DNA of 64,000 bases from Deltaproteobacteria bacterium (GTDB lineage Bacteria > Desulfobacterota > GWC2-55-46). Where the stretch lies: contig JACOUO010000017.1 of assembly GCA_016177845.1 (NCBI GenBank), positions 62,001-126,000 of the forward strand. Direction: 5' to 3'. The translations under genes and the position numbers were made by a program. The notes beneath the pieces are model-generated. The model was not told where the DNA came from, made no database searches, and worked only from the letters and a program-made list of their open reading frames with translations. Of the stretch, positions 17,148-36,454 are shown in pieces (the first letter of the stretch is position 1; each line of letters opens with the position of its first letter).

Positions 17148-17330
17148 TCCTTATCCGAAAGTATTATAATTGCTATGGCATAAAGGTTTACCCTCGCGCT
17201 CTATTGTTGCGGACATCGGTAATCTTTACACTTAGCCCATCTCCTGTTGTATTTTGCATTAAGCCTTTCTTCTCCATCCTGTTTTAAAGTTTCTTTGTCT
17301 TACATCCGATCTTCCTTCGGGGTTTTAAGA

Positions 17331-19523
17331 ATGTTACGCCAAGGCTTGAAATCAAAAATCCTTAACCTGACCATAGGGCTGACTCTGCTTGGTTTCGGGG
17401 TACTCGTATTCCTGGTCATCAAGGAAGAGGAAAAGAGCCTTTTGAGGGAGAGGATGAAGGCAAGCGAGCTCATGGCGCAGCCTATCCTCCATACGATTTA
17501 CAAGGACATGCTTGATGAAAGGGCGGACATGCCCCGGTTTCTCATTGACGGTCTTAAGACCATCAAAGGCGTTGAGAGGGTCCAGCTCATCAGGTCAAAC
17601 GGAGTTGAAGAGGCTTTCCAGGATTATAAGACGCTCAACGATGTCAAGGCTGAGTTCGGAGAGATAAAGCCTGAGTGGATAGTTGACCATTCAAACAAGC
17701 TCAACAATGTTGCCCAGGGCATCCACAATCCTGATTTTAAAAAAGCGCTTCAAAGCTTCAATTCAGGTAAGAGGGAAGCCGTATATTATATTGAAAAAGA
17801 AGGGGAGAAGAGCTTTTTCACATATCTTATCCCCATAGTGTCAAAGCCCAAATGCAGCGGCTGCCATGCGCATGAAGAGGCTGCCAGGGGCGCCCTGATG
17901 ATAACTACATCGCTTGATGAGATGTACGGCGTCCTTTCAGGCTCAAGGAATAAGTGGATACTTTACGGAGTGATGACAGCCGCAGGCATGACAATGCTTC
18001 TGGGGCTTCTTGTAAGCGGTGTAATAACGCGCCCCATCGACAGGACCGTCGATATGCTAAAGGCGATAGCCGAGGGCAAGGGAGACCTTACAAAGCGCCT
18101 TGACATAGCATCCGATGACGAGATAGGCATGCTCGGCAAATGGTTCAATAAATTTGTCGAAGGCATGCAGCATATGGTCAAGGAGATATTCGGAATATCC
18201 CGTGAAGTATCTTCCGCGTCAAAGGAGATCGAATCGTCTTCAAGGGAGATAATCGAAGCGGTACAGAAACAGCTGGAAGCGGCTGAGGACACATCAGCCT
18301 CGATAAAAGAGATGGACGCCTCCATAAAGACCGTTGCCGAGGAGGCAGACGCCCTCAACAGCTCATCGATAGAGGTGTCGGACTCTGTTCAGACCATGTC
18401 CGGGTCTGTTGACGAGGTAAAGGTCAACATCGAAAAACTGTTCTACTCGGCCTCTTCTACTACTTCATCCATAAATGAGATGGCGATTTCCATCAATCAG
18501 GTCGCTTCCCATGTCGATGAACTGTTCAAAAAGACCGAAGATGTCGTATCCTCCATCATCGATATCGGCTCAAAGGTAAAAGAGGTGGAGAACTATTCAA
18601 GGGCGCAGGCAGAACTTGCCGAGAAGGTAAGGGAAGACGCCGAAGACCTCGGCATGGCCTCTGTCGTAAAGACAAGGGAAGGCATCGAGAAGGTAAGCTC
18701 TGAGGTCGCCTCAACCGCCCTTGTCATAAATCGCCTCGGCGAAAGGTCAAAGGAGATAGGAAAGATACTTACCGTCATCAATGATATTGCCGATACGACG
18801 CATCTGCTGGCCCTTAACGCGACGATACTTGCGGCGCAGGCAGGAGAGCATGGAAAAGGCTTTGCGGTCGTGGCACGGCAGGTCAAGGACCTTGCAACTA
18901 AAACGACATCCTCTACAAAGGAAATATCAGAACTTATAAAGCAGGTGCAGAGCGAAGTGGCAATAGCGGTAGATTCCATGCAGAGAAGCTCAGAAAAAGT
19001 CGAGGACGGAGTTAGGCTTTCAAGGGACGCGCAGGAAGCTCTGATGAAGATACTTGATTCCACAATGAGCTCGTTTGAGATGGCCAAGATGATAGAGAAG
19101 GCAACTATCGAGCAGACAAAGGGAACAGGTCAGATAACCAATGTCGCGCAGGTCATAAGCCACATGGTCGGAGATATCAAAAACGCCGCAAACGAGCAGT
19201 CAATTGCCGCGAAAGAGATACTTAAGGACACTGTTCAGATGAAGGAATTCATGGAGAGGGTCAAGCTTTCCACAAACGAGCAGTCAAGGGAGAGCAAGCA
19301 TGTCTCAGAGGCCATACTTAAGGTCGTGGATAAGATAAGCAGGGTGGCTCAGGCAACATCGGAACAGATGAAGTTCTCAAAGAGGATAGTATCTGCAGTA
19401 GAAACGGTCAAACAGGCGGCTGAAGACAACGCCGCGCTTGCCGCAAGGCTTGAGAGGACCGTAAAAGAGATGAACAAGCAGGCAGATACGCTTAGAAATA
19501 CAGTCGGAAGCTTCAAGGCGTAA
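17331..19523 (+). CDS. Methyl-accepting chemotaxis protein with a periplasmic heme-c site
   Basis: A 730-residue chemoreceptor. It has a first membrane span (about residues 10-30), a periplasmic sensor (31-205) that ends in a CSGCH motif at 175-179 followed by HEEAARGAL, a second span (about 206-230), a HAMP domain, and a long methyl-accepting signalling helix pair whose tip reads TTHLLALNATILAAQAGEHGKGFAVVA. The sensor resembles the DUF3365/Tll0287 heme-binding PAS-like family, so it should carry covalently bound heme c and sense redox, oxygen or NO; the ligand is inferred. I start at the ATG at 17331: the longer ORF opens with a TTG at 17247 and adds 28 residues with no ribosome site. It is followed after 23 bp by two more c-type heme proteins. 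Confidence 0.9.
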   Translation: MLRQGLKSKILNLTIGLTLLGFGVLVFLVIKEEEKSLLRERMKASELMAQPILHTIYKDMLDERADMPRFLIDGLKTIKGVERVQLIRSNGVEEAFQDYKTLNDVKAEFGEIKPEWIVDHSNKLNNVAQGIHNPDFKKALQSFNSGKREAVYYIEKEGEKSFFTYLIPIVSKPKCSGCHAHEEAARGALMITTSLDEMYGVLSGSRNKWILYGVMTAAGMTMLLGLLVSGVITRPIDRTVDMLKAIAEGKGDLTKRLDIASDDEIGMLGKWFNKFVEGMQHMVKEIFGISREVSSASKEIESSSREIIEAVQKQLEAAEDTSASIKEMDASIKTVAEEADALNSSSIEVSDSVQTMSGSVDEVKVNIEKLFYSASSTTSSINEMAISINQVASHVDELFKKTEDVVSSIIDIGSKVKEVENYSRAQAELAEKVREDAEDLGMASVVKTREGIEKVSSEVASTALVINRLGERSKEIGKILTVINDIADTTHLLALNATILAAQAGEHGKGFAVVARQVKDLATKTTSSTKEISELIKQVQSEVAIAVDSMQRSSEKVEDGVRLSRDAQEALMKILDSTMSSFEMAKMIEKATIEQTKGTGQITNVAQVISHMVGDIKNAANEQSIAAKEILKDTVQMKEFMERVKLSTNEQSRESKHVSEAILKVVDKISRVAQATSEQMKFSKRIVSAVETVKQAAEDNAALAARLERTVKEMNKQADTLRNTVGSFKA

Positions 19524-19546
19524 GAATCCGCAATTTGGAGGTCCCT

Positions 19547-20560
19547 ATGGTTGGGTTTACTTCAGTTTTAATGCTGGTATTGGCTTTCACGCTCGCTTTG
19601 CCGCTTCAAGGTTACGCGAAAGACATAAATTGGTCAAAGATAGATTCTGCCAGGGTAGTTCTTTTTTACCCGGGTGTGACATCGTGGGAGTTCCTGACAA
19701 GCGATGACCACAGGCTTGGCGGCAGGGAGATAAAACAGGGTAAAAAGGACTGCAGGCATTGCCACCTGAGCAAGGAAGGCGAGCTTGATCTCAAGGCAGA
19801 TGAAATAGCCGCGGGAAGCGTCAAGATGAAGAGGTCTCATAACCCGTTTGAGCCTGAGCCGCTGGCCGGGAAAAAAGGCGTGGCGCAGGCTAAATTTCAG
19901 GCTGCTTATGACGACGAGTTCCTGTATCTAAGGGTTGAGTGGGACTCAAAAGGCGGCGGATGGAACAGGAAAAGCCCTAATAACAGCAGCGTTCCTGACA
20001 GGGTCTCGCTGCAGATAAACAAGACTGAATCTACATTTAAGAAATACGGCTGTTTCATTACCTGCCATAACGACCTCAACACTATGCCTTTAAGCCCTCA
20101 GAAGAGGGATGTATCAGCGCACCCTTATTACAAGTCGCTGGACAGGTCGGATGTAAGGCTTTACGCTAATTACGCCAAGGCCTCATGGGATGAGAAGAGG
20201 AATGACAAAGACCTTGAAAAGAAGCTTAAGGAAGGCGGGCGCATAGATTTAAGGGCAGTGGAGTTTGAAGGCGGCTCGGCAAAGGCTTTGGACGGCTGGA
20301 TATTCGATGACAGGATATGGGAAAATAAATCAGCGGACGCAACCGGCCAATGGGCGAGCGGAAAATATTCCGCCGTGTTCAAGGCCAGACTTAAATCAAA
20401 AGACGCTTTCGACATACAGGTCAATGAAGGCGATGTAATATCCGTAGGCATCGCCATCCATGAGGAAAATACCGCAAAGAGGAAACATTATGTCTCATTC
20501 CCTTACGCGATAGGGCTTGGGACAAACGGCGATATAAAGGCTTCCAGGATTTCCAATTGA
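19547..20560 (+). CDS. Periplasmic c-type cytochrome, ethylbenzene-dehydrogenase heme-domain type
   Basis: A 337-residue exported protein: signal peptide at residues 1-24 (cleavage near GYA-KD), CRHCH at 69-73 as a heme-c site, then a domain resembling the heme-binding gamma subunit of ethylbenzene dehydrogenase and related enzymes (EB_dh). Inside this domain GCFITCHND gives a CX3CH spacing rather than CX2CH. The start at 19547 is set by GGAGG five bases upstream; an earlier TTG at 19535 would put that site inside the gene. It lies in an apparent operon between the heme chemoreceptor and the heme beta-barrel. The likely role is periplasmic electron carriage; no catalytic partner is encoded beside it. 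Confidence 0.75.
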   Translation: MVGFTSVLMLVLAFTLALPLQGYAKDINWSKIDSARVVLFYPGVTSWEFLTSDDHRLGGREIKQGKKDCRHCHLSKEGELDLKADEIAAGSVKMKRSHNPFEPEPLAGKKGVAQAKFQAAYDDEFLYLRVEWDSKGGGWNRKSPNNSSVPDRVSLQINKTESTFKKYGCFITCHNDLNTMPLSPQKRDVSAHPYYKSLDRSDVRLYANYAKASWDEKRNDKDLEKKLKEGGRIDLRAVEFEGGSAKALDGWIFDDRIWENKSADATGQWASGKYSAVFKARLKSKDAFDIQVNEGDVISVGIAIHEENTAKRKHYVSFPYAIGLGTNGDIKASRISN

Positions 20561-22735: not shown

Positions 22736-22976
22736 ACATAACTAGGCAACCGGTCGGTTTAAGTTAATAGTATTAGTCCGCTGCCTTGATTAGCGCTGAG
22801 GATAATATGGCAAGGGGTCATGTTTACTCAGACAGGAGGAATCCCTCTGCAGATAAGCACGGTCTTTCGGGGAAAGATATTTTCTCCTGCAATGTTACCT
22901 TAGGAAAATGAATAGTGCTATTCTGGTTCGGAAAAAAGCAGTCAAACCAAAAAACAACTTTAAGGAGGAGTTACCA

Positions 22977-23174
22977 ATGAAAGCACTTTATACTGCATGT
23001 GCCGCCGTAGTATTATCAGCATTTCTTTCAGTCTCAGTCGCTTCAGCCCAGTCACATCAGCCGCCCCAGCACCCGACTCCAAAGCCTACTCACCAGGTTC
23101 CTGAGCCTGCCACAATCCTTCTTGTAGGCGCAGCACTTTCAGCCCTTGGCATCGCAAAGAGGGTAAAGAAATAA
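22977..23174 (+). CDS. Very small PEP-CTERM sorting-signal protein
   Basis: A 65-residue protein. A signal peptide ends near ASA-QS (residue 24), a 16-residue His/Pro/Gln-rich segment follows (25-40), then a canonical PEP-CTERM tail: VPEPAT at 41-46, a hydrophobic stretch to 60, and KRVKK. Exosortase would cleave at the PEP motif, leaving a mature peptide of about 17 residues if signal peptidase also cuts. The start at 22977 is set by AAGGAGGAG six bases upstream; the longer ORF from 22908 adds a non-secretory head. Exosortase itself is not in the window. Regulation is by the sigma-54 promoter at 22719 and transcription ends at 23191-23224. Confidence 0.85.
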   Translation: MKALYTACAAVVLSAFLSVSVASAQSHQPPQHPTPKPTHQVPEPATILLVGAALSALGIAKRVKK

Positions 23175-23377: not shown

Positions 23378-23788
23378 TTAGCCCCGTTTTTCCTTTACCC
23401 TGAGCTTTGCCTGAGCAAGCTCGTAAGCGTCAGAGGCTGACTGGTAGGCCGCGTCGTCTGTGGTAAGCCCTTTGAGGGCCTCCTCAGCCTTTGCAAGGTC
23501 CCTTCTGGCAGCTTCCGCGTCTATCTCATTTGCCATCTCAGCGCTGTCCACAAGTATTGTGGTCTTATCAGGAAGGACTTCAGCATAGCCTCTGCTGATT
23601 GCCAGCATCCCTGATTCAGAGCCCTTCTTGTAGCTTATCTCGCCCGGCTTAAGGATGGTGAGGAAAGGGGAGTGCCCCGCGAGCACGCCAAATTCGCCTT
23701 CCTGGCCTGTAGCGGTCATCTCTTCGACTTCCTGCGAGAGGAGCTTTCTGTACGGGGTTACTATTTCAAGCAAAAATGTGTCTGCCAT
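23378..23788 (-). CDS. atpC: F1Fo ATP synthase epsilon subunit
   Basis: Epsilon sits in the central stalk and links the c-ring to rotation in F1, with a regulatory C-terminal helical pair. The 136-residue protein shows the beta-sandwich signatures GQEGEFGVLAGHSPFLTILKPG and AISRGYAEVLPDKTTILVDSAE, then an Ala-rich helix hairpin. Length is typical. It is last in the operon, 17 bp after atpD. Confidence 0.96.
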   Translation of the reverse strand: MADTFLLEIVTPYRKLLSQEVEEMTATGQEGEFGVLAGHSPFLTILKPGEISYKKGSESGMLAISRGYAEVLPDKTTILVDSAEMANEIDAEAARRDLAKAEEALKGLTTDDAAYQSASDAYELAQAKLRVKEKRG

Positions 23789-23805: not shown

Positions 23806-25257
<1,452 letters not shown>

Positions 25258-25275: not shown

Positions 25276-26142
25276 TTATCCTTTAAGCGCCTCTGAACCG
25301 CCGATGATCTCCATAAGTTCCTTGGTGATGGCGGCCTGACGGAGCCTGTTGTATGTAAGTGTAAGACCGCTTATCATCTGTGAAGCGTTCTTTGAAGCGG
25401 AGTCCATTGCTGTCATCCTTGAGCCGTGTTCGCTCGCTGATGATTCAAGAAGCGCCCTGAAAGCCTGTACCTCGACATACTTCGGAAGCAGGCTTGAAAG
25501 CACCGCGCCCTCGGTAGGCTCGAATATGAACTCTCCCTGGGTCTCTTCCTTCTCCGACTCTGTCTTGGGAGTGGAGATGGGAAGGAGCTTCTGGACTACA
25601 GCTGTCTGGGTAAGGGCTGATTTGAATTCGCTGTAGATGATATGGACCTCATCAAGCTCGCCGTTGAGGTAAGCGTTGATGACGTCATTGGCTATCTCAA
25701 CAGCCATTGCGTAGCTGGGCCTTGCGTTTCCCACAGGCCTTGCTTTCATTATATTTACCGAACGCCTCTTGAAGTGCTCTGTGCCTCGCTTGCCAACAAG
25801 ATAAAGGCTTACATTTGCGCCGGACTGCTCTCTTACGAACCTTTCGGCAAGTCTGATAAGGGAGGTGTTGAAACCGCCGCAAAGTCCTCTGTCAGAGGTG
25901 ACGAATATGACCCCGATCTTATTTCCGCCGCTGTTTGCGAGCAACGGGTGGCTGTCTGAGGAGGTCTTTGAAGCAAGTGATGAGATAAGGCCGAGCATCT
26001 TTTCGGCATAAGGCCTTGCGGCCACTATTTCATCCTGCGCCCTTTTGAGCTTGGCGGCAGAGACCATTTTCATGGCCTTGGTGATCTGCCTTGTATTTTT
26101 TACGGATTTTATCCTGCGTTTTATATCTTTAAGGCTTGGCAT
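25276..26142 (-). CDS. atpG: F1Fo ATP synthase gamma subunit
   Basis: Gamma is the rotor shaft inside the alpha3-beta3 ring. The 288-residue protein starts with MPSLKDIKRRIKSVKNTRQITKAMKMV and ends with the conserved helix DSASKNASQMISGLTLTYNRLRQ, described here by its first and last blocks; SDRGLCGGFN lies between. Length fits. A 75-bp spacer before it, with a GGGCA/TGCCC inverted repeat, separates it from atpA and may tune translation or mRNA stability. Confidence 0.96.
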   Translation of the reverse strand: MPSLKDIKRRIKSVKNTRQITKAMKMVSAAKLKRAQDEIVAARPYAEKMLGLISSLASKTSSDSHPLLANSGGNKIGVIFVTSDRGLCGGFNTSLIRLAERFVREQSGANVSLYLVGKRGTEHFKRRSVNIMKARPVGNARPSYAMAVEIANDVINAYLNGELDEVHIIYSEFKSALTQTAVVQKLLPISTPKTESEKEETQGEFIFEPTEGAVLSSLLPKYVEVQAFRALLESSASEHGSRMTAMDSASKNASQMISGLTLTYNRLRQAAITKELMEIIGGSEALKG

Positions 26143-26217: not shown

Positions 26218-28281
<2,064 letters not shown>

Positions 28282-28282
<1 letters not shown>

Positions 28283-29253
28283 CAGTTAAGCCTCAAATTG
28301 TTAAGATATCCTTTTACGAGCTTCTCCTGATCCTCAGGTTTAAGCTCTTTTCTCAATATTTCCTCGGCCATGCCTACAGCTATCTCGGCCACTTCTCTGC
28401 GAATCTCAAGCCTTGCCTTTTTAATCTCCTGCTCTGCGGCAAGCTTGGCCTGCTCTTTTATCTTAAGTGAAGAGGCCTGCGCCTCCTGCATGATCCTCTG
28501 CTTCTCGGCTTCGCCTTCAAGCCTGAGCTCGTTCTGTATCTCAGCTATACGGCTCTCTAATACATTTAATTTTGCGTTATATTCCGAGGCCTTGCGGTCG
28601 GCAATGTCTTTTGCTTCCTTGGCCTGGTCGATTGCCTGCTTTATATCCGCACTCCTTTTATCAAGCAGCCCTTTTATGGCTTTTGTCCATACAAGGTAAA
28701 CTCCTACAGCAAGTATCACGAAGTTGATTATCTTCCAAGTCGTACCGCTTCCGCCGTGTTCGCCGCCCTCCGGTGCTGCCCCTGCGATTGCGGGCAGAAG
28801 GGGGAGGATGAAGGCAAAGAGCATTACGATAACTTTTCTGTCAAGTATCTTCTCAGCGATATTCTGGGAGAGTGACTTTGATTCGACCTTAAGGCTTGAG
28901 AGCGCTGAGGCCTTGCTTGCCTCAAGCTCTTTTCTCATGGAGGCTATCTCGGCTGCGGCTTCTGTGCGGGCGGCCTCAAGTAAGGCCTTTTCCCTGTCAA
29001 TGCCTTCCTGCCTTATCTTGCTCCTCTCCTCATTGCCTCTTACAGCGGCTTCCTTAAGCCTCTTTTCATAAGCGGCAACACCTTCCACAACTTCCTTTTC
29101 AAGCTCGGCGGCCTTTTTGATGGCGCCGCTGATCTTCTCTTCCCTTTCCTTTAAAATGCGAAGTACCGGGTTGTAGAGGAAACGGTTTAGGATTATAAGG
29201 AGAATGAAAAAGCCTATAATCTGAAATATTAGGGTCTGGTCAATTGCTATCAT
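28282..29253 (-). CDS. atpF: Fused F1Fo ATP synthase b'-b stator subunit
   Basis: One uninterrupted 323-residue ORF holds two b-type stator subunits in tandem. Residues 1-140 are a complete b' subunit: membrane span 6-26, then a long charged helix ending EKILDRK. Residues 141-323 are a complete b subunit: a hydrophobic segment at 141-158 ending AGA-AP, a loop GGEHGGSG, a membrane span at about 174-190, then a long helix. In relatives these are separate genes. Topology closes well if 141-158 spans the membrane outwards; alternatively it is an internal signal peptide with an AGA cleavage site. An internal ATG at 28824 (Met144) has no ribosome site before it. It is first in the operon; atpB and atpE (a and c) are absent here. 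Confidence 0.88.
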
Positions 29254-29629: not shown

Positions 29630-30169
29630 TTATCTGCCTTGGCCCGGGCTCGGCCCAAGGGGAACTCCCTTGCCTGCGCCGGGCCGCTGGCTTAGGTCAG
29701 TGCCCTGCCTTTGGAATATGCCTTTGTTCTGCTCTATATCGCTTCTTTCCTTACTGAGGTCTGTCCCGCCCTGCTGAGTCGGGCCCTTCCCGATGACAGT
29801 GTCATTGGTTATTGGGCCGGTGGGGCTGTTCGTGCGGCCAAGGCTTCCGTCTATTGTAGTATTGCCGAGACTGCCTGTTATTTCTTTGCCGGGAGTTGTT
29901 ATTTCATTACCGAGTGTCCCTGTTGTAGCATTGCCGTTACCGAAAGCATCGCTGTCCAATGCGTCATTGCCTGTTCCGCGGCCCAGTGTATCATTGCCGA
30001 ATGTGCCTGTAGCATTTGGCATCTCTCCTGTAGTTCCTGGAGTTGTTGTTATTGGGCCGGTTGTCCCGCCCGTTGCGCCGCCTGTACCGCCTCCGCCTGT
30101 CTGGGCAAAAACAGTGACGGATAAAAGAGAGGCCATCAATACGGCCCCTAAGACTTCGGGTATCTTCAT
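29630..30169 (-). CDS. Secreted low-complexity Gly/Thr/Asn-rich protein
   Basis: A 179-residue protein with a clear signal peptide (cleavage near VFA-QT at about 22) and a mature part made almost only of Gly, Thr, Asn, Pro, Ser, Asp and Ile in short imperfect units such as GNDTLGRGTGNDALDSDAFG and TGSLGNTTIDGSLG. There is no Cys and no known domain. It should be disordered or form a simple beta-repeat outside the inner membrane. The signal peptide starts MKIP, as does that of the gene upstream, and the two promoters share a motif. GGAGGAG lies before the ATG. Function unknown; the regulon link suggests an envelope role during metal stress. Confidence 0.72.
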   Translation of the reverse strand: MKIPEVLGAVLMASLLSVTVFAQTGGGGTGGATGGTTGPITTTPGTTGEMPNATGTFGNDTLGRGTGNDALDSDAFGNGNATTGTLGNEITTPGKEITGSLGNTTIDGSLGRTNSPTGPITNDTVIGKGPTQQGGTDLSKERSDIEQNKGIFQRQGTDLSQRPGAGKGVPLGPSPGQGR

Positions 30170-30666: not shown

Positions 30667-33600
30667 CTATCCCTGTTTTTTTAGTTCCCTTCCTTTCCAG
30701 ATGGCATATATGGCAGGGAGCACCAGAAGCTCAAGGAGCCCTGAGGTGAACATGCCGCCTACCATCGGTGCCGCTATCTTTTTCATTACATCAGCCCCTG
30801 TGCCAATGCTCCACATGATTGGCAGCAAGCCCGCTATGATGGCTGTGACTGTCATGAGCTTTGGCCTTACCCTTAAAACGGTTCCGTCCATGATGGCTTC
30901 GTGGAGATCGTCCTTTGAGTTCATCCTGCCTTCGGCCTTTCTCGTATTATACGCCTGGTCAAGGTAGATGAGCATGACTATGCCCATCTCGGCATCAAGG
31001 CCCGCAAGGGCGATAAATCCTACAGCCACTCCGATACTTAAGTTGTATCCCAGGAGATACAATATCCACGCCGCGCCTATAAGGGAGAACGGGATTGCCA
31101 AAAGTATTATCAGGCACTCGGTAATGGATTTGAAGTTAAGATACAGGAGCAGGAAGATGATTGCGAGCGTAAGCGGGATAATAAGCTTAAGCTTCTCATA
31201 AGCCCTCTGCATGTATTCATACTGGCCGCTCCATGTTGCGTAGTAGCCTGTCGGGAACTTCACATTCTGCGCTACAGCCGCCTTTGCCTCATTTACATAG
31301 CTCCCCACATCCCTGCCCCTTACATCTACATATATCCATGTTGTGAGAAGGGCATTTTCTGTCCTGATTGTGGGCGGGCCCATCTTGACCCGTATATCGG
31401 CAACCTGCTGCAAAGGTATGTGCTGGCCTGTCATGGTCGGTATCAAAACACGCTCAAGCTTGACTACATCATCACGAAGCTCTCTTTTATACCTGACATT
31501 TACAGGATATCTTTCAAGGCCTTCAACCGTTGTGGTGACATTTTCTCCTCCGATTGCGGACATGATGACATCCTGAATGTCTTCTATCTTAAGCCCATAC
31601 CTTGCGGCCTCTTCCCTTTTTATGTCTATATCGAGATAGTACCCTCCGATTATCCTCTCCGCATAGGCGCTCGCCGTACCGGGTATGTTCTTTACAGCAG
31701 CCTCCACATCAAGGGCGACCTTTTCAAGCTGTTCAAGGTCCTTTCCGAATACCTTTATTCCCACAGGCGTGCGTATGCCAGTTGAGAGCATGTCTATCCT
31801 TGCCTTGATGGGCATTGTCCATGCGTTGGTGACACCGGGCATCTCAAGGGCTCTATTTAGCTCATCGATGAGCTTGTCCGTTGTCATGCCGTCGCGCCAT
31901 TGGTCGCGGGGCTTGAGATTTATTATGGTCTCAAACATCTCAAGTGGCGCCGGGTCCGTTGCGGTAAGCGCGCGCCCTGCCTTGCCGAATACGCTGTCTA
32001 CCTCAGGGAAGTTCTTGATTATCTTATCCTGCGTCTGAAGTATCTCGGCGGTTTTGGTTACTGAGATTCCGGGCAGGGTTACCGGCATGTACATGAGAGT
32101 GCCTTCATCGAGGGCAGGCATGAACTCGCTTCCAAGCCTGCTTAACGGGAAGATTGAAATAACAAGCGCGGCAACCGCGATAAGGATGGTAGCTGTTTTG
32201 AACTTTAAAACCTTTTCTATCGCAGGCCTGTAGAGCCATATCAAAAACCTTGTAATCGGGTTTTTGTGCTCAGGCATGATTTTGCCCCTGATGAAAATGC
32301 CCATTAACACAGGCACAAGCGTAATGGAGAGGAATGCAGAGGCTGCCATCGCAAAGGTCTTTGTATATGCGAGCGGTTTAAAGAGCCTGCCCTCCTGGGC
32401 CTCAAGCGTAAATATGGGCATAAAGGAAACCGTGATAATAAGGAGCGAGAAGAACAGAGGCGGGCCTACTTCCTTTGCGGCGTTCGTGATTATATCCCAA
32501 TGCCCCTTGATGCCCTCATCCCGTTCAAGGTGCTTGTGCGCGTTCTCAATCATGACGATTGCGCCGTCTATCATCGCGCCTATGGCGATAGCTATGCCGC
32601 CTAAGCTCATGATGTTGGCGTTAATGCCCATCTGGTACATTATGATAAAGGAAATTAAAATCGCTACAGGCAGCATTATTATTGCCACAAGCGCGCTTCT
32701 GAAGTGCAGGAGGAAGATTATGCAGACGAGCGAGACTACGATGGATTCCTCAACGAGCTTTTCCTTGAGAGTGTCTATTGCCCTGTGTATGAGGTCGCTT
32801 CTGTCATAGACAGGCCTTATCGTAATGCCGGGCGGCAGCCCTGCCTCAAGCTCTTTAAGTTTTGCCTTTACCCCGTCAATGACAGTCAAGGCGTTCTCGC
32901 CGAAGCGCATTACAACTATTCCGCCCACAGCCTCACCATCGCCGTTGAGTTCAGATAGGCCCCTTCTTTCATCCGGGCCAAATTCGACCCTTGCGACATC
33001 CCTTATTTTAATAGGGGTGCCTGTCCTGTCTACCCTGAGCACGATATTTTCAATGTCGTCAAGGCTCTTGATGTAGCCGAAGCCCCTGACCATGTACTCG
33101 CGCTCAGCCATCTCGATGACCCTGCCGCCGACATCCTTGTTGCTCATCTCTATTGATTTGACGATGTCGTTTATGGAGATGCCGTAGGTGAGAAGCCTGT
33201 TCGGGTCTATGTTGACCTGATACTGCTTTACAAAGCCGCCGATTGATGCGACCTCAGAGACCCCTGGAACCGTAGTAAGCTGATAACGGATATACCAGTC
33301 CTGTATTGAACGGAGCTCGGCTAAACTGTAGCCCTTTCCCTCTACCGTGTATTCGAATACCCAGCCCACGCCCGTGGCATCCGGGCCGAGCGAAGGCGTT
33401 ACGCCTCTGGGTAGTTTGCCTGCGGCAAAGTTCAGGTACTCAAGCACTCTTGAACGGGCCCAGTACATGTCGGTGCCGTCCTCGAATATCACATAGACAA
33501 AAGAGGTGCCGAAAAATGAATAGCCCCTGACGACTTTTGCCTTGGGTACGGCAAGCATCGCTGTTGTAAGCGGGTAGGTTATCTGGTCTTCAACTACCTG

Positions 33601-33774
33601 AGGGGCCTGGCCGGGATAATCCGTATATATGATTACCTGGACATCCGAGAGGTCGGGTATGGCGTCAATAGGCGTCCTGTAAATGGCGAGTATGCCCCAG
33701 CCGATGGCAAAGGCAGTGAACAGGAGAATGATAAATTTATTCTGAACTGAAAGCTCGATAATTCTCTTTAACAT
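30667..33774 (-). CDS. cusA: CusA/CzcA-family heavy-metal efflux RND pump
   Basis: The inner membrane proton-driven pump of a tripartite system. The 1035-residue protein has the HME-RND plan: twelve spans, two large periplasmic loops, the family start FAIGWGILAIYRTPIDAIPDLSDVQV in its first block, GGIAIAIGAMIDGAIVMIEN in TM4 with relay acidic residues, and ARIDMLSTGIRTPVGIK in the second loop. That Met matches one member of the CusA three-Met site; by my recollection of E. coli CusA the other two positions hold Ile and Asn here (TAEILQ, GGENV). Cu/Ag is favoured by the CusB type, but another soft metal is possible. It lies 15 bp after cusB. Confidence 0.9.
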   Translation of the reverse strand: MLKRIIELSVQNKFIILLFTAFAIGWGILAIYRTPIDAIPDLSDVQVIIYTDYPGQAPQVVEDQITYPLTTAMLAVPKAKVVRGYSFFGTSFVYVIFEDGTDMYWARSRVLEYLNFAAGKLPRGVTPSLGPDATGVGWVFEYTVEGKGYSLAELRSIQDWYIRYQLTTVPGVSEVASIGGFVKQYQVNIDPNRLLTYGISINDIVKSIEMSNKDVGGRVIEMAEREYMVRGFGYIKSLDDIENIVLRVDRTGTPIKIRDVARVEFGPDERRGLSELNGDGEAVGGIVVMRFGENALTVIDGVKAKLKELEAGLPPGITIRPVYDRSDLIHRAIDTLKEKLVEESIVVSLVCIIFLLHFRSALVAIIMLPVAILISFIIMYQMGINANIMSLGGIAIAIGAMIDGAIVMIENAHKHLERDEGIKGHWDIITNAAKEVGPPLFFSLLIITVSFMPIFTLEAQEGRLFKPLAYTKTFAMAASAFLSITLVPVLMGIFIRGKIMPEHKNPITRFLIWLYRPAIEKVLKFKTATILIAVAALVISIFPLSRLGSEFMPALDEGTLMYMPVTLPGISVTKTAEILQTQDKIIKNFPEVDSVFGKAGRALTATDPAPLEMFETIINLKPRDQWRDGMTTDKLIDELNRALEMPGVTNAWTMPIKARIDMLSTGIRTPVGIKVFGKDLEQLEKVALDVEAAVKNIPGTASAYAERIIGGYYLDIDIKREEAARYGLKIEDIQDVIMSAIGGENVTTTVEGLERYPVNVRYKRELRDDVVKLERVLIPTMTGQHIPLQQVADIRVKMGPPTIRTENALLTTWIYVDVRGRDVGSYVNEAKAAVAQNVKFPTGYYATWSGQYEYMQRAYEKLKLIIPLTLAIIFLLLYLNFKSITECLIILLAIPFSLIGAAWILYLLGYNLSIGVAVGFIALAGLDAEMGIVMLIYLDQAYNTRKAEGRMNSKDDLHEAIMDGTVLRVRPKLMTVTAIIAGLLPIMWSIGTGADVMKKIAAPMVGGMFTSGLLELLVLPAIYAIWKGRELKKQG

Positions 33775-33789
33775 CTGAAAGGTCCTGCC

Positions 33790-35139
33790 TTAATGCTTAT
33801 GTTGTGAAGGCGGTGCGGGAGCCGGTGTTTCCTTTTTGGCTCCATCGTGCTGCATGCCGCTGATTGCGGTTTTAAGATTGCTTTCGGAATCAACGAGGAA
33901 GTTGGCTGATGTGACTACCCATTCGCCTTCGCTTACCCCTTGAAGTATCTGGAAGTAGTCCTCTCCCTTGGGGCCTGTCTTGACCTCTCTCGGTTCGAAA
34001 GTGCCGTCCCTGTTGTCTATTACCACAAGCTGCCTTGTGCCTGAATCGATAAGCGCGGAATCCGGGACTGCAATGGCATTCTTTGCGATATTCGCGGCTA
34101 TTTCGACATTAAGGTACATTCCGAGCTTGAGCCTGTGGTCTTTGTTGGGCAGAGCGAACCGTACCTTCTCTGTCCTTACCTCTGTGCCTTCCTCAGGCGC
34201 GTACCTGATCGAACCAAGGTGGCTGTAGATATGCTCGATGGTCCCTTTATAAACTTCATTTGGAGAATAGGCAGGGGTTAATGTGGCGGACTGCCCTTCC
34301 CTTATATAAGGCATCTCGTATTCGTATATCTCGCCGTAAACCCATACGCTTGAATGGTCTATTATCTTAAAGAGCGTCTCGCCGGCCTCTATCTTCTGCC
34401 CTTCGACAACCATCTTCTCGGTTACGCTGCCGTAGCCCGGCGACCTGATGGCAAGCGTCCGCGTGGCTGTGCCTGTCTCTTTAAGCCTTTTTATCTGGTC
34501 TTCGGATATGTCCCAGTATTTAAGCCTCTGTTTTGACGCCTCTACAAGGCTCTGCGCGCCTTTCCTGACCTCAGGGTAGGGGCTCATCTTTACCTGTTCA
34601 AGTCCTTTTAACGCAAGCAGGTATTCTTCCTGAGCCGATATAAGCTCAGGGCTGTATATCTCAAGGAGCTTATCTCCCCTTGAGACCATCTGGTCTGTGC
34701 GGTTAACATAGAGCCTCTCCACCCACCCCGTTACCTTGGCGTTCATTATGAAGACCTTGTCCTCGACAGGCTCGACCCTTCCTACCGTTCTTATGATTCG
34801 GCTCAGGTTTTTTCTTTCAACGGGTGCGGATTTTATCCCTATCTTCTGGATCTTTTCCGGGCTTATCTTTACAAGGCCCGGAGTTTGGTCTTTCTCTGTT
34901 TCTGGCGCATCTTCCTCATATACAGGGATATAATCCATGCCCATTTCGTCTTTCATGGGCACAGGTGAGGTGACCTTCGGGTTCATGGGGTTACGGTAGA
35001 AGAGGATATTTTTTTCCTTCTCCGCCTTGCCCGCGAATGAGACCTGCTTTTGCTCCTTATGCATCCAGACATAGACCAGCGTGCCGCCTGCGGCAAGGCC
35101 TATCAGAAGGACCAATAGTATCAACATTATTTTTTTCAT
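33790..35139 (-). CDS. cusB: CusB-type periplasmic adaptor
   Basis: This membrane-fusion protein joins the RND pump to the outer membrane channel and, in Cus systems, hands metal to the pump. The 449-residue protein has an N-terminal membrane anchor, then a heavy-metal-binding segment FYRNPMNPKVTSPVPMKDEM followed by GMDYIPVY, a Met-rich Cu/Ag-type version without Cys, then barrel-sandwich, hairpin and beta-barrel domains (GRVEPVEDKVFIMNAKVTGW, VYGEIYEYEMPYIREGQ) and a His-containing tail. The start at 35139 (MKKIMLILL) is chosen because the longer ORF to 35226 overlaps the upstream gene and lacks a membrane signal. It lies 13 bp after the TolC-family gene. Confidence 0.9.
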   Translation of the reverse strand: MKKIMLILLVLLIGLAAGGTLVYVWMHKEQKQVSFAGKAEKEKNILFYRNPMNPKVTSPVPMKDEMGMDYIPVYEEDAPETEKDQTPGLVKISPEKIQKIGIKSAPVERKNLSRIIRTVGRVEPVEDKVFIMNAKVTGWVERLYVNRTDQMVSRGDKLLEIYSPELISAQEEYLLALKGLEQVKMSPYPEVRKGAQSLVEASKQRLKYWDISEDQIKRLKETGTATRTLAIRSPGYGSVTEKMVVEGQKIEAGETLFKIIDHSSVWVYGEIYEYEMPYIREGQSATLTPAYSPNEVYKGTIEHIYSHLGSIRYAPEEGTEVRTEKVRFALPNKDHRLKLGMYLNVEIAANIAKNAIAVPDSALIDSGTRQLVVIDNRDGTFEPREVKTGPKGEDYFQILQGVSEGEWVVTSANFLVDSESNLKTAISGMQHDGAKKETPAPAPPSQHKH

Positions 35140-35152
35140 TTGATTAACTCTT

Positions 35153-36454
35153 TTATTTGTCTGAAAGCGAAGCGAGCCCGCCATCAGCTGATGTGGCCGA
35201 GATGTCAACTCCGACCGCGCGCTCAAGGGCGGCTACCCTCTTTCGATATTCAAGAAGCGTTCTCAGATAATCGATCCTTGTCTTTTTAAGCTCCCTTTCA
35301 GTATCGAGGAGCATTATGAAATCTATCCTGCCTGTCTGGTAATTCCTTACAGCCGATTCAAAGGAAAGCTCTACCTGAGGCATGAGGCTTGTCTCGTACA
35401 GAGAGCGCATCCTGTCAGAGGCGTCCACCTGCAAGGCAGCCCCTTTTACCTCAAAGGCCTTGTTGTTCTTCTCTGACGCAAGCCTTGATTTGAGGAAGAG
35501 GGCGTTTGCGGTTGCCTCCTGTGTTTGGCTGTTGTATTTACCCCTCCATATCGGGATATTTATCTGGAACATTAAATCGTAGCTGTCAAACCTGCCGTCC
35601 CTCTGTATGGGGGCCACTCCGACCATCAGGTCAGGGTAGTAGTTCTTCTTTGCAAGGTCGACAGAAAGTTCGTTGGCGTGCGCCTCTGCCTCCATCATCC
35701 TGATATCAGGGCTCTGCTTTACTGCGGACTCCACAAGCTCATCCGTATTGAAGCTGACCCTGTCTTTGGGCAGCTCTGCGGAGATACTGACCTGCGAGCC
35801 CTGAGGCCTGCTGATGAGGGATTTAAGCCTTGCCTCGGCTATCTCCTTTTCTGCGTTAAGGCTGATAAGCTCATTTCCAAGCATGGTAAGCTCTACATTT
35901 ATTTTTATTACATCCTGCTGAGAGACCTGTCCTGTTGAGTACCTCAACTGCGCTATCTCGGACATATGCGTTAGTACATCTTTTATCTCTTCGGTCTTTC
36001 TTATTGCCTCATTCAGGTAGGCATATTCGTAGTACGCCTCCTTGACCATGCCTGAGACTTCAATCTCTTTGGCAGCAAGTTCGGAGTTTGCCTGGTGCGC
36101 TTCCTTAAGGGCTATCTTCTCCCGCAGGGACAATTTGCCGGGGAAGGGGAACATCTGGCTGACAGTATACCTTGTAAGCATGGCATTGCCCGGCCCAGTA
36201 TTGAGCGGGCGAGTCCTGTCAAGGTCTTCCATCTCAACCTTTAAAGTGGGGTCGTCAAGATAACCTTCGGCCTTTGCCCTTGCCTGCCTTGCCCTGACTT
36301 TTTCCGAGAATGCCTTAAGCTCAGGGTTATTTGCCTTTGCCTCTTCGATGAGGGATTTTAGCGTCAGTGCCTCCTCTGAAAAAGCCGGAAGCGACGCAAG
36401 CGAGCTAAAGATAAGTATAAGAAGTATGGAAAATATTCCAATGATAGTCCGCAT
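35153..36454 (-). CDS. TolC-family outer membrane efflux channel (CusC-like)
   Basis: A 433-residue protein with a signal peptide (cleavage near AFS-EE, about 27) and the two repeated outer membrane efflux domains typical of TolC channels, rich in long Ala/Glu/Lys helices (EIDV-type heptads) and the NAELKAFSEKVRARQARAKA-type helix start. There is no lipobox, unlike E. coli CusC. It is encoded with cusB and cusA in the order channel-adaptor-pump, so it is the outer membrane part of this pump. It follows the small periplasmic gene by 21 bp. Confidence 0.88.
   Translation of the reverse strand: MRTIIGIFSILLILIFSSLASLPAFSEEALTLKSLIEEAKANNPELKAFSEKVRARQARAKAEGYLDDPTLKVEMEDLDRTRPLNTGPGNAMLTRYTVSQMFPFPGKLSLREKIALKEAHQANSELAAKEIEVSGMVKEAYYEYAYLNEAIRKTEEIKDVLTHMSEIAQLRYSTGQVSQQDVIKINVELTMLGNELISLNAEKEIAEARLKSLISRPQGSQVSISAELPKDRVSFNTDELVESAVKQSPDIRMMEAEAHANELSVDLAKKNYYPDLMVGVAPIQRDGRFDSYDLMFQINIPIWRGKYNSQTQEATANALFLKSRLASEKNNKAFEVKGAALQVDASDRMRSLYETSLMPQVELSFESAVRNYQTGRIDFIMLLDTERELKKTRIDYLRTLLEYRKRVAALERAVGVDISATSADGGLASLSDK

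Follow-up and report, generated by a model that had tools for sequence, protein, structure and literature searches.

The window analysed here, a 64,000-nucleotide stretch of a deltaproteobacterial contig, carries an F1Fo ATP synthase operon in the order b'b, delta, alpha, gamma, beta, epsilon (Table 1). Its first gene, on the minus strand, encodes a complete b' subunit and then a complete b subunit with no stop between them: the frame runs from the ATG at 29253 to the TGA at 28284-28282 through 323 codons with zero internal stops. Two stretches of the protein match Pfam ATP-synt_B (PF00430; E 4e-31, 108 bits against a 28-bit cut-off), and each half taken separately also scores above the cut-off. 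The original prediction, which was silent on the strand, had placed b' and b in one chain with both halves complete, and it holds on both counts, coordinates included.

Table 1 Features of the fused atpF'-atpF gene and of the ATP synthase operon that it heads (positions in the window).
Feature	Position	Strand	Description
Fused atpF'-atpF gene	28282..29253	-	323 aa, 36.1 kDa precursor; open frame, two ATP-synt_B matches, fusion kept in 43 order homologues
b' part	28828..29253	-	Residues 1-142; a stalk helix preceded by a membrane span at about 7-25
Joint	28777..28836	-	Residues 140-159 (hydrophobic stretch 141-159), with h-region, Pro154 and AGA site; reads as the Sec signal peptide that once began b
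Predicted signal peptidase I cut, Ala159 / Ala160	28776..28777	-	Predicted from small-x-Ala motif
Predicted mature b part	28285..28776	-	Residues 160-323, 164 aa, 18.4 kDa
Delta subunit	27734..28282	-	OSCP Pfam match
Alpha subunit	26218..27732	-	ORF; named from sequence and operon order
Gamma subunit	25276..26142	-	ORF; named from sequence and operon order
Beta subunit	23806..25227	-	ORF; conserved in relatives
Epsilon subunit	23378..23788	-	ORF; named from sequence and operon order

The fused gene's stop codon and the ATG of delta overlap in TGATG, and the gene for subunit a lies at another place in the genome, outside this operon. There is no further PF00430 match in the window's genome, which is tabulated as 100% complete; both stalk subunits must therefore derive from the fused frame. 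Around the operon, a secreted ORF rich in Gly and Thr, for which Pfam gives no match (29630-30169, minus strand), lies directly upstream, and 30667-36454 (minus strand) holds an RND heavy-metal-type efflux set comprising an AcrB-family pump, a CusB-type adaptor and an outer-membrane-factor-like protein. On the plus strand, 22908-23174 encodes a small secreted protein whose end, PEPATILLVGAALSALGIAKRVKK, is a PEP-CTERM-like sorting tail, and 17247-20560 encodes a methyl-accepting chemotaxis protein and then an ORF containing a heme-type EB_dh (ethylbenzene dehydrogenase) domain.

Each half of the chain has the layout of a peripheral stalk subunit, an N-terminal membrane span and a long stalk helix, as judged from AF2 helices and PDB profile matches. 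In the profile search, residues 2-137 align with residues 84-219 of the 222 of chloroplast b' (6fkf_p), and residues 173-313 with chloroplast b (6fkf_b). The AF2 model draws b' as one helix (residues 6-131) and the b stalk as another (185-303) that begins inside the b span; residues 131-178 have pLDDT below 50, so that the model leaves the conformation of the joint undecided. A fold search of this model against the PDB returned nothing significant (best E 0.08), as is expected for long helices, and is uninformative here. The predicted mature b would begin at Ala160 with APEGGEHGGSGTTWK, its acidic, Gly-rich and presumably periplasmic lead preceding a membrane span at about 172-192 and the stalk helix.

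The fusion of b' and b is an order-wide trait. Matches were found in 42 of the 48 genomes of the window's order, and all 43 homologues in them are fused and stop-free, among them one from a single-contig 2.75-Mb genome; a search of these relatives for split genes or an indel at the joint, the comparison that the original prediction had called for, found neither. PF00430 hits above the cut-off are absent from all six order genomes without a match, and so none of these is a split counter-example. Across a phylum sample of 297 genomes, the stop-free matches that span the joint came, among the matches listed, only from the window's order. One genome of the order (G034) has two fused b'-b genes, L037 and L038, on contigs C12 and C113; these lie close together in the tree and may reflect either duplication of the operon or a bin that mixes two strains.

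This distribution bears directly on the most trivial explanation, that a sequencing or assembly error joined two genes. A one-base change in AGAAAAG would indeed yield a b' ending in RKLS-stop, with a TAATG overlapping Met144. Such an error is nevertheless ruled out by the 43 open fusions, which come from genomes assembled separately and include the single-contig one, and we regard its probability as negligible.

A separate collection provided 25 fused and 25 split loci, the fused ones nearly all from metagenome-assembled genomes labelled 'Deltaproteobacteria bacterium'. In a tree of 73 homologues, built with the joint columns left out, the fused rows form one clade on a single branch (SH-aLRT 99), which corresponds to one change; read most simply, this tree points to a single origin of the fusion and its retention ever since.

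The split relatives of the class suggest where the joint came from. Their b' terminates in RKVA-stop exactly where the fused chains join, and their b has at its start a signal peptide of Sec type, with c-regions such as SQAFA↓AEEGGHEG and SPALA↓AEEGGHES (arrows, predicted cleavage). The fused proteins read ...RKVV-(hydrophobic core)-P-x-x-x-x-A↓S/A-E-E-G-G-H, fused AFA↓SSEGGHG corresponding to split QAFA↓AEEGGHEG; the charged n-region of the b signal is missing, and the junction falls at the position of the b' stop. Judged by this alignment, the joint is the Sec signal peptide of split b minus its n-region.

Across the 43 fused rows, the R139 column holds 41 Arg and 2 Lys, P154 is Pro in 38 and Ala in 5, and 39 rows carry a small residue (A, V, G or S) at 157. 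The A159 column has 41 Ala and 2 Gly, and position 158 varies freely, with Phe, Leu, Ser, Arg and Met among its residues. Most columns neighbouring the conserved positions have an entropy of about 2 bits or more. The joints are 16-22 residues long, motif included, and most are free of charged or amide residues; a few have a weak -3 residue (Leu in L008 and L012, Glu in one alignment row). Signal peptidase I substrates keep a -3/-1 pattern with Pro near -6, whereas a structural membrane helix needs none of these. Column conservation and leader homology together indicate the n, h and c regions and the small-x-small site of an internal signal peptide. Behind the joint, the lead of b is acidic, with 105 D/E against 7 K/R summed over the 43 homologues, which is compatible with a periplasmic location.

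Could b instead be made separately, from an internal translation start located either at the joint or at a Met immediately ahead of the b span, beside the full-length product? In 38 of the 43 fused genes the interval from the signal core to the b span does contain some start codon, often an ATG that precedes Trp173 by two codons and follows Gly codons resembling an SD site. The split relatives, however, show the same pattern of ATG and Gly codons, the window gene itself has no start codon in that interval, several relatives lack the pre-span ATG, and no start position is common to all 43 homologues; in 13 of them there is no ATG, GTG or TTG from 12 codons before R139 to 13 after it. As originally noted, no ribosome site accompanies the internal ATG at 28824 (Met144), whose predicted anti-SD pairing energy is -0.4 kcal/mol against -4.9 kcal/mol at the real start; its column is not conserved (Met in 4 of 43). 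An internal start would, moreover, leave b' unreleased and the conserved signal motif unexplained, and we consider it quite improbable. More improbable still is a ribosomal frameshift at the joint that terminates b' early in part of the products: the window does have a +1 stop overlapping Met144 (GTAATG) behind AAAA, but both this slippery run and the out-of-frame stop are unconserved across the 43 homologues.

We propose that the fused chain is probably a polyprotein precursor, which signal peptidase I would cut after Ala159 to give mature b. On this model, which we infer from sequence in respect of the cuts, their order and the proteases involved, the ancestor would have had adjacent b' and b genes, b with an N-terminal Sec signal peptide, and one deletion would have taken out the signal n-region together with the b' stop and the start codon of b. 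The Arg-Lys at the b' C-terminus would then have become the n-region, placing the hydrophobic core of the signal directly behind the b' stalk. During synthesis, b' would insert N-out; the joint would then enter the Sec translocon as an internal signal, delivering the acidic, Gly-rich lead of b to the periplasm, and after cleavage at Ala159 the b span would anchor mature b N-out.

This cut would leave b' with a hydrophobic tail of 17-20 residues, which would have to go because the b' helix could not otherwise extend along F1 to delta. The tail could be removed by, for example, an RseP-like site-2 protease or FtsH, although both the route and the protease are speculative; the calculated mass of b' is 17.7 kDa with the tail and about 16.0 kDa without it. 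In E. coli, RseP clears remnant signal peptides (PMC10470546). The window's genome has one signal peptidase I gene and several M50 proteases; these enzymes are nearly universal, and their presence is therefore no more than permissive. The end product of the proposed processing would be an ordinary b'/b heterodimer in a fixed 1:1 ratio.

The main competing interpretation is an intact single-chain stator, in which the joint stays in the membrane as a reverse span and b' and b form a single, uncut three-span polypeptide. The open frame is conserved across the order, as this would require, and the charge topology fits, with R139 and K140 inside and the acidic linker outside. The geometry does not: the b' helix is predicted to be unbroken from residue 6 to 131, reaching about 105 residues (about 160 Å) beyond the membrane, and only about 10 residues separate its end from the hydrophobic joint, making a return to the membrane impossible unless b' folds back. 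Nor has any lineage gained a return linker; b' is as long as free b', and a full-length b' without an added linker leaves the uncut chain mismatched to the canonical stalk. The joint, at 16-22 residues, is also broken by Pro and retains the small-x-Ala motif. On the modelled geometry an uncut hairpin stator is thus unlikely, and weighing all the evidence we assign the intact stator a low probability. Scarcely more probable is the broader case in which the chain either stays whole or undergoes a single cut that leaves the b' C-terminus tied to the membrane; if true, it would constitute a stator architecture unlike that of any known F-type enzyme. Of the two roles first suggested for the joint, then, the cleavable internal signal peptide is well supported by motif conservation and leader homology, while the intact reverse span is disfavoured by a short, Pro-broken segment with no return linker.

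The closest known precedent for a cut polyprotein is FbcH of Bradyrhizobium, a polyprotein of cytochrome b and cytochrome c1 in which the signal peptide of the second subunit forms an internal joint that is cut by signal peptidase. In both cases one bioenergetic gene would supply two membrane subunits, cleavage in the window's protein being predicted from sequence. FbcH belongs to another complex, however, and in the window the stalk helix that closes the first product lies far from the membrane; here, unlike in FbcH, the leftover signal should therefore also need removal.

Among ATP synthases, the split atpF'/atpF genes of related deltaproteobacteria, cyanobacteria and chloroplasts encode the same two subunits in the same order and at the same operon place before delta, and the signal peptide of b in the split relatives shares its cleavage region with the fused joint; these are, however, two genes with a stop and a separate start, whereas the window has one open chain from which the signal n-region has been deleted. 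The mycobacterial b-delta fusion (AtpFH, PDB 7jg5 chain d) is likewise a natural fusion of F-type peripheral stalk subunits, but it joins b to delta and is intact in solved enzymes, whereas the window's protein joins b' to b through a cleavable-looking signal. Indeed, OSCP/delta is a separate gene in the window (27734-28282), and the gene is thus no b-delta fusion. A survey of bacterial ATP synthase evolution describes b/b' as an ancient in-locus duplication with b' separate (PMC4154653), delta-b is the sole stalk fusion mentioned in PMC5709465, and our literature search turned up no account of b' and b fused in nature. The components and the device each have precedents; what appears to be new is their combination, fixed throughout an order, in the stator of an ATP synthase.

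Peripheral stalks of the b/b' type require one copy of each subunit. The lineage described here appears to have locked the b':b ratio by making both in one chain, with the signal peptide of b reused as a scissile joint. If this is true, assembly of a core energy enzyme would require signal peptidase and probably a further protease. The fused gene offers a natural test of b'/b assembly in cis, and the b'-b fusion marks out an uncultured bacterial lineage at the rank of order.
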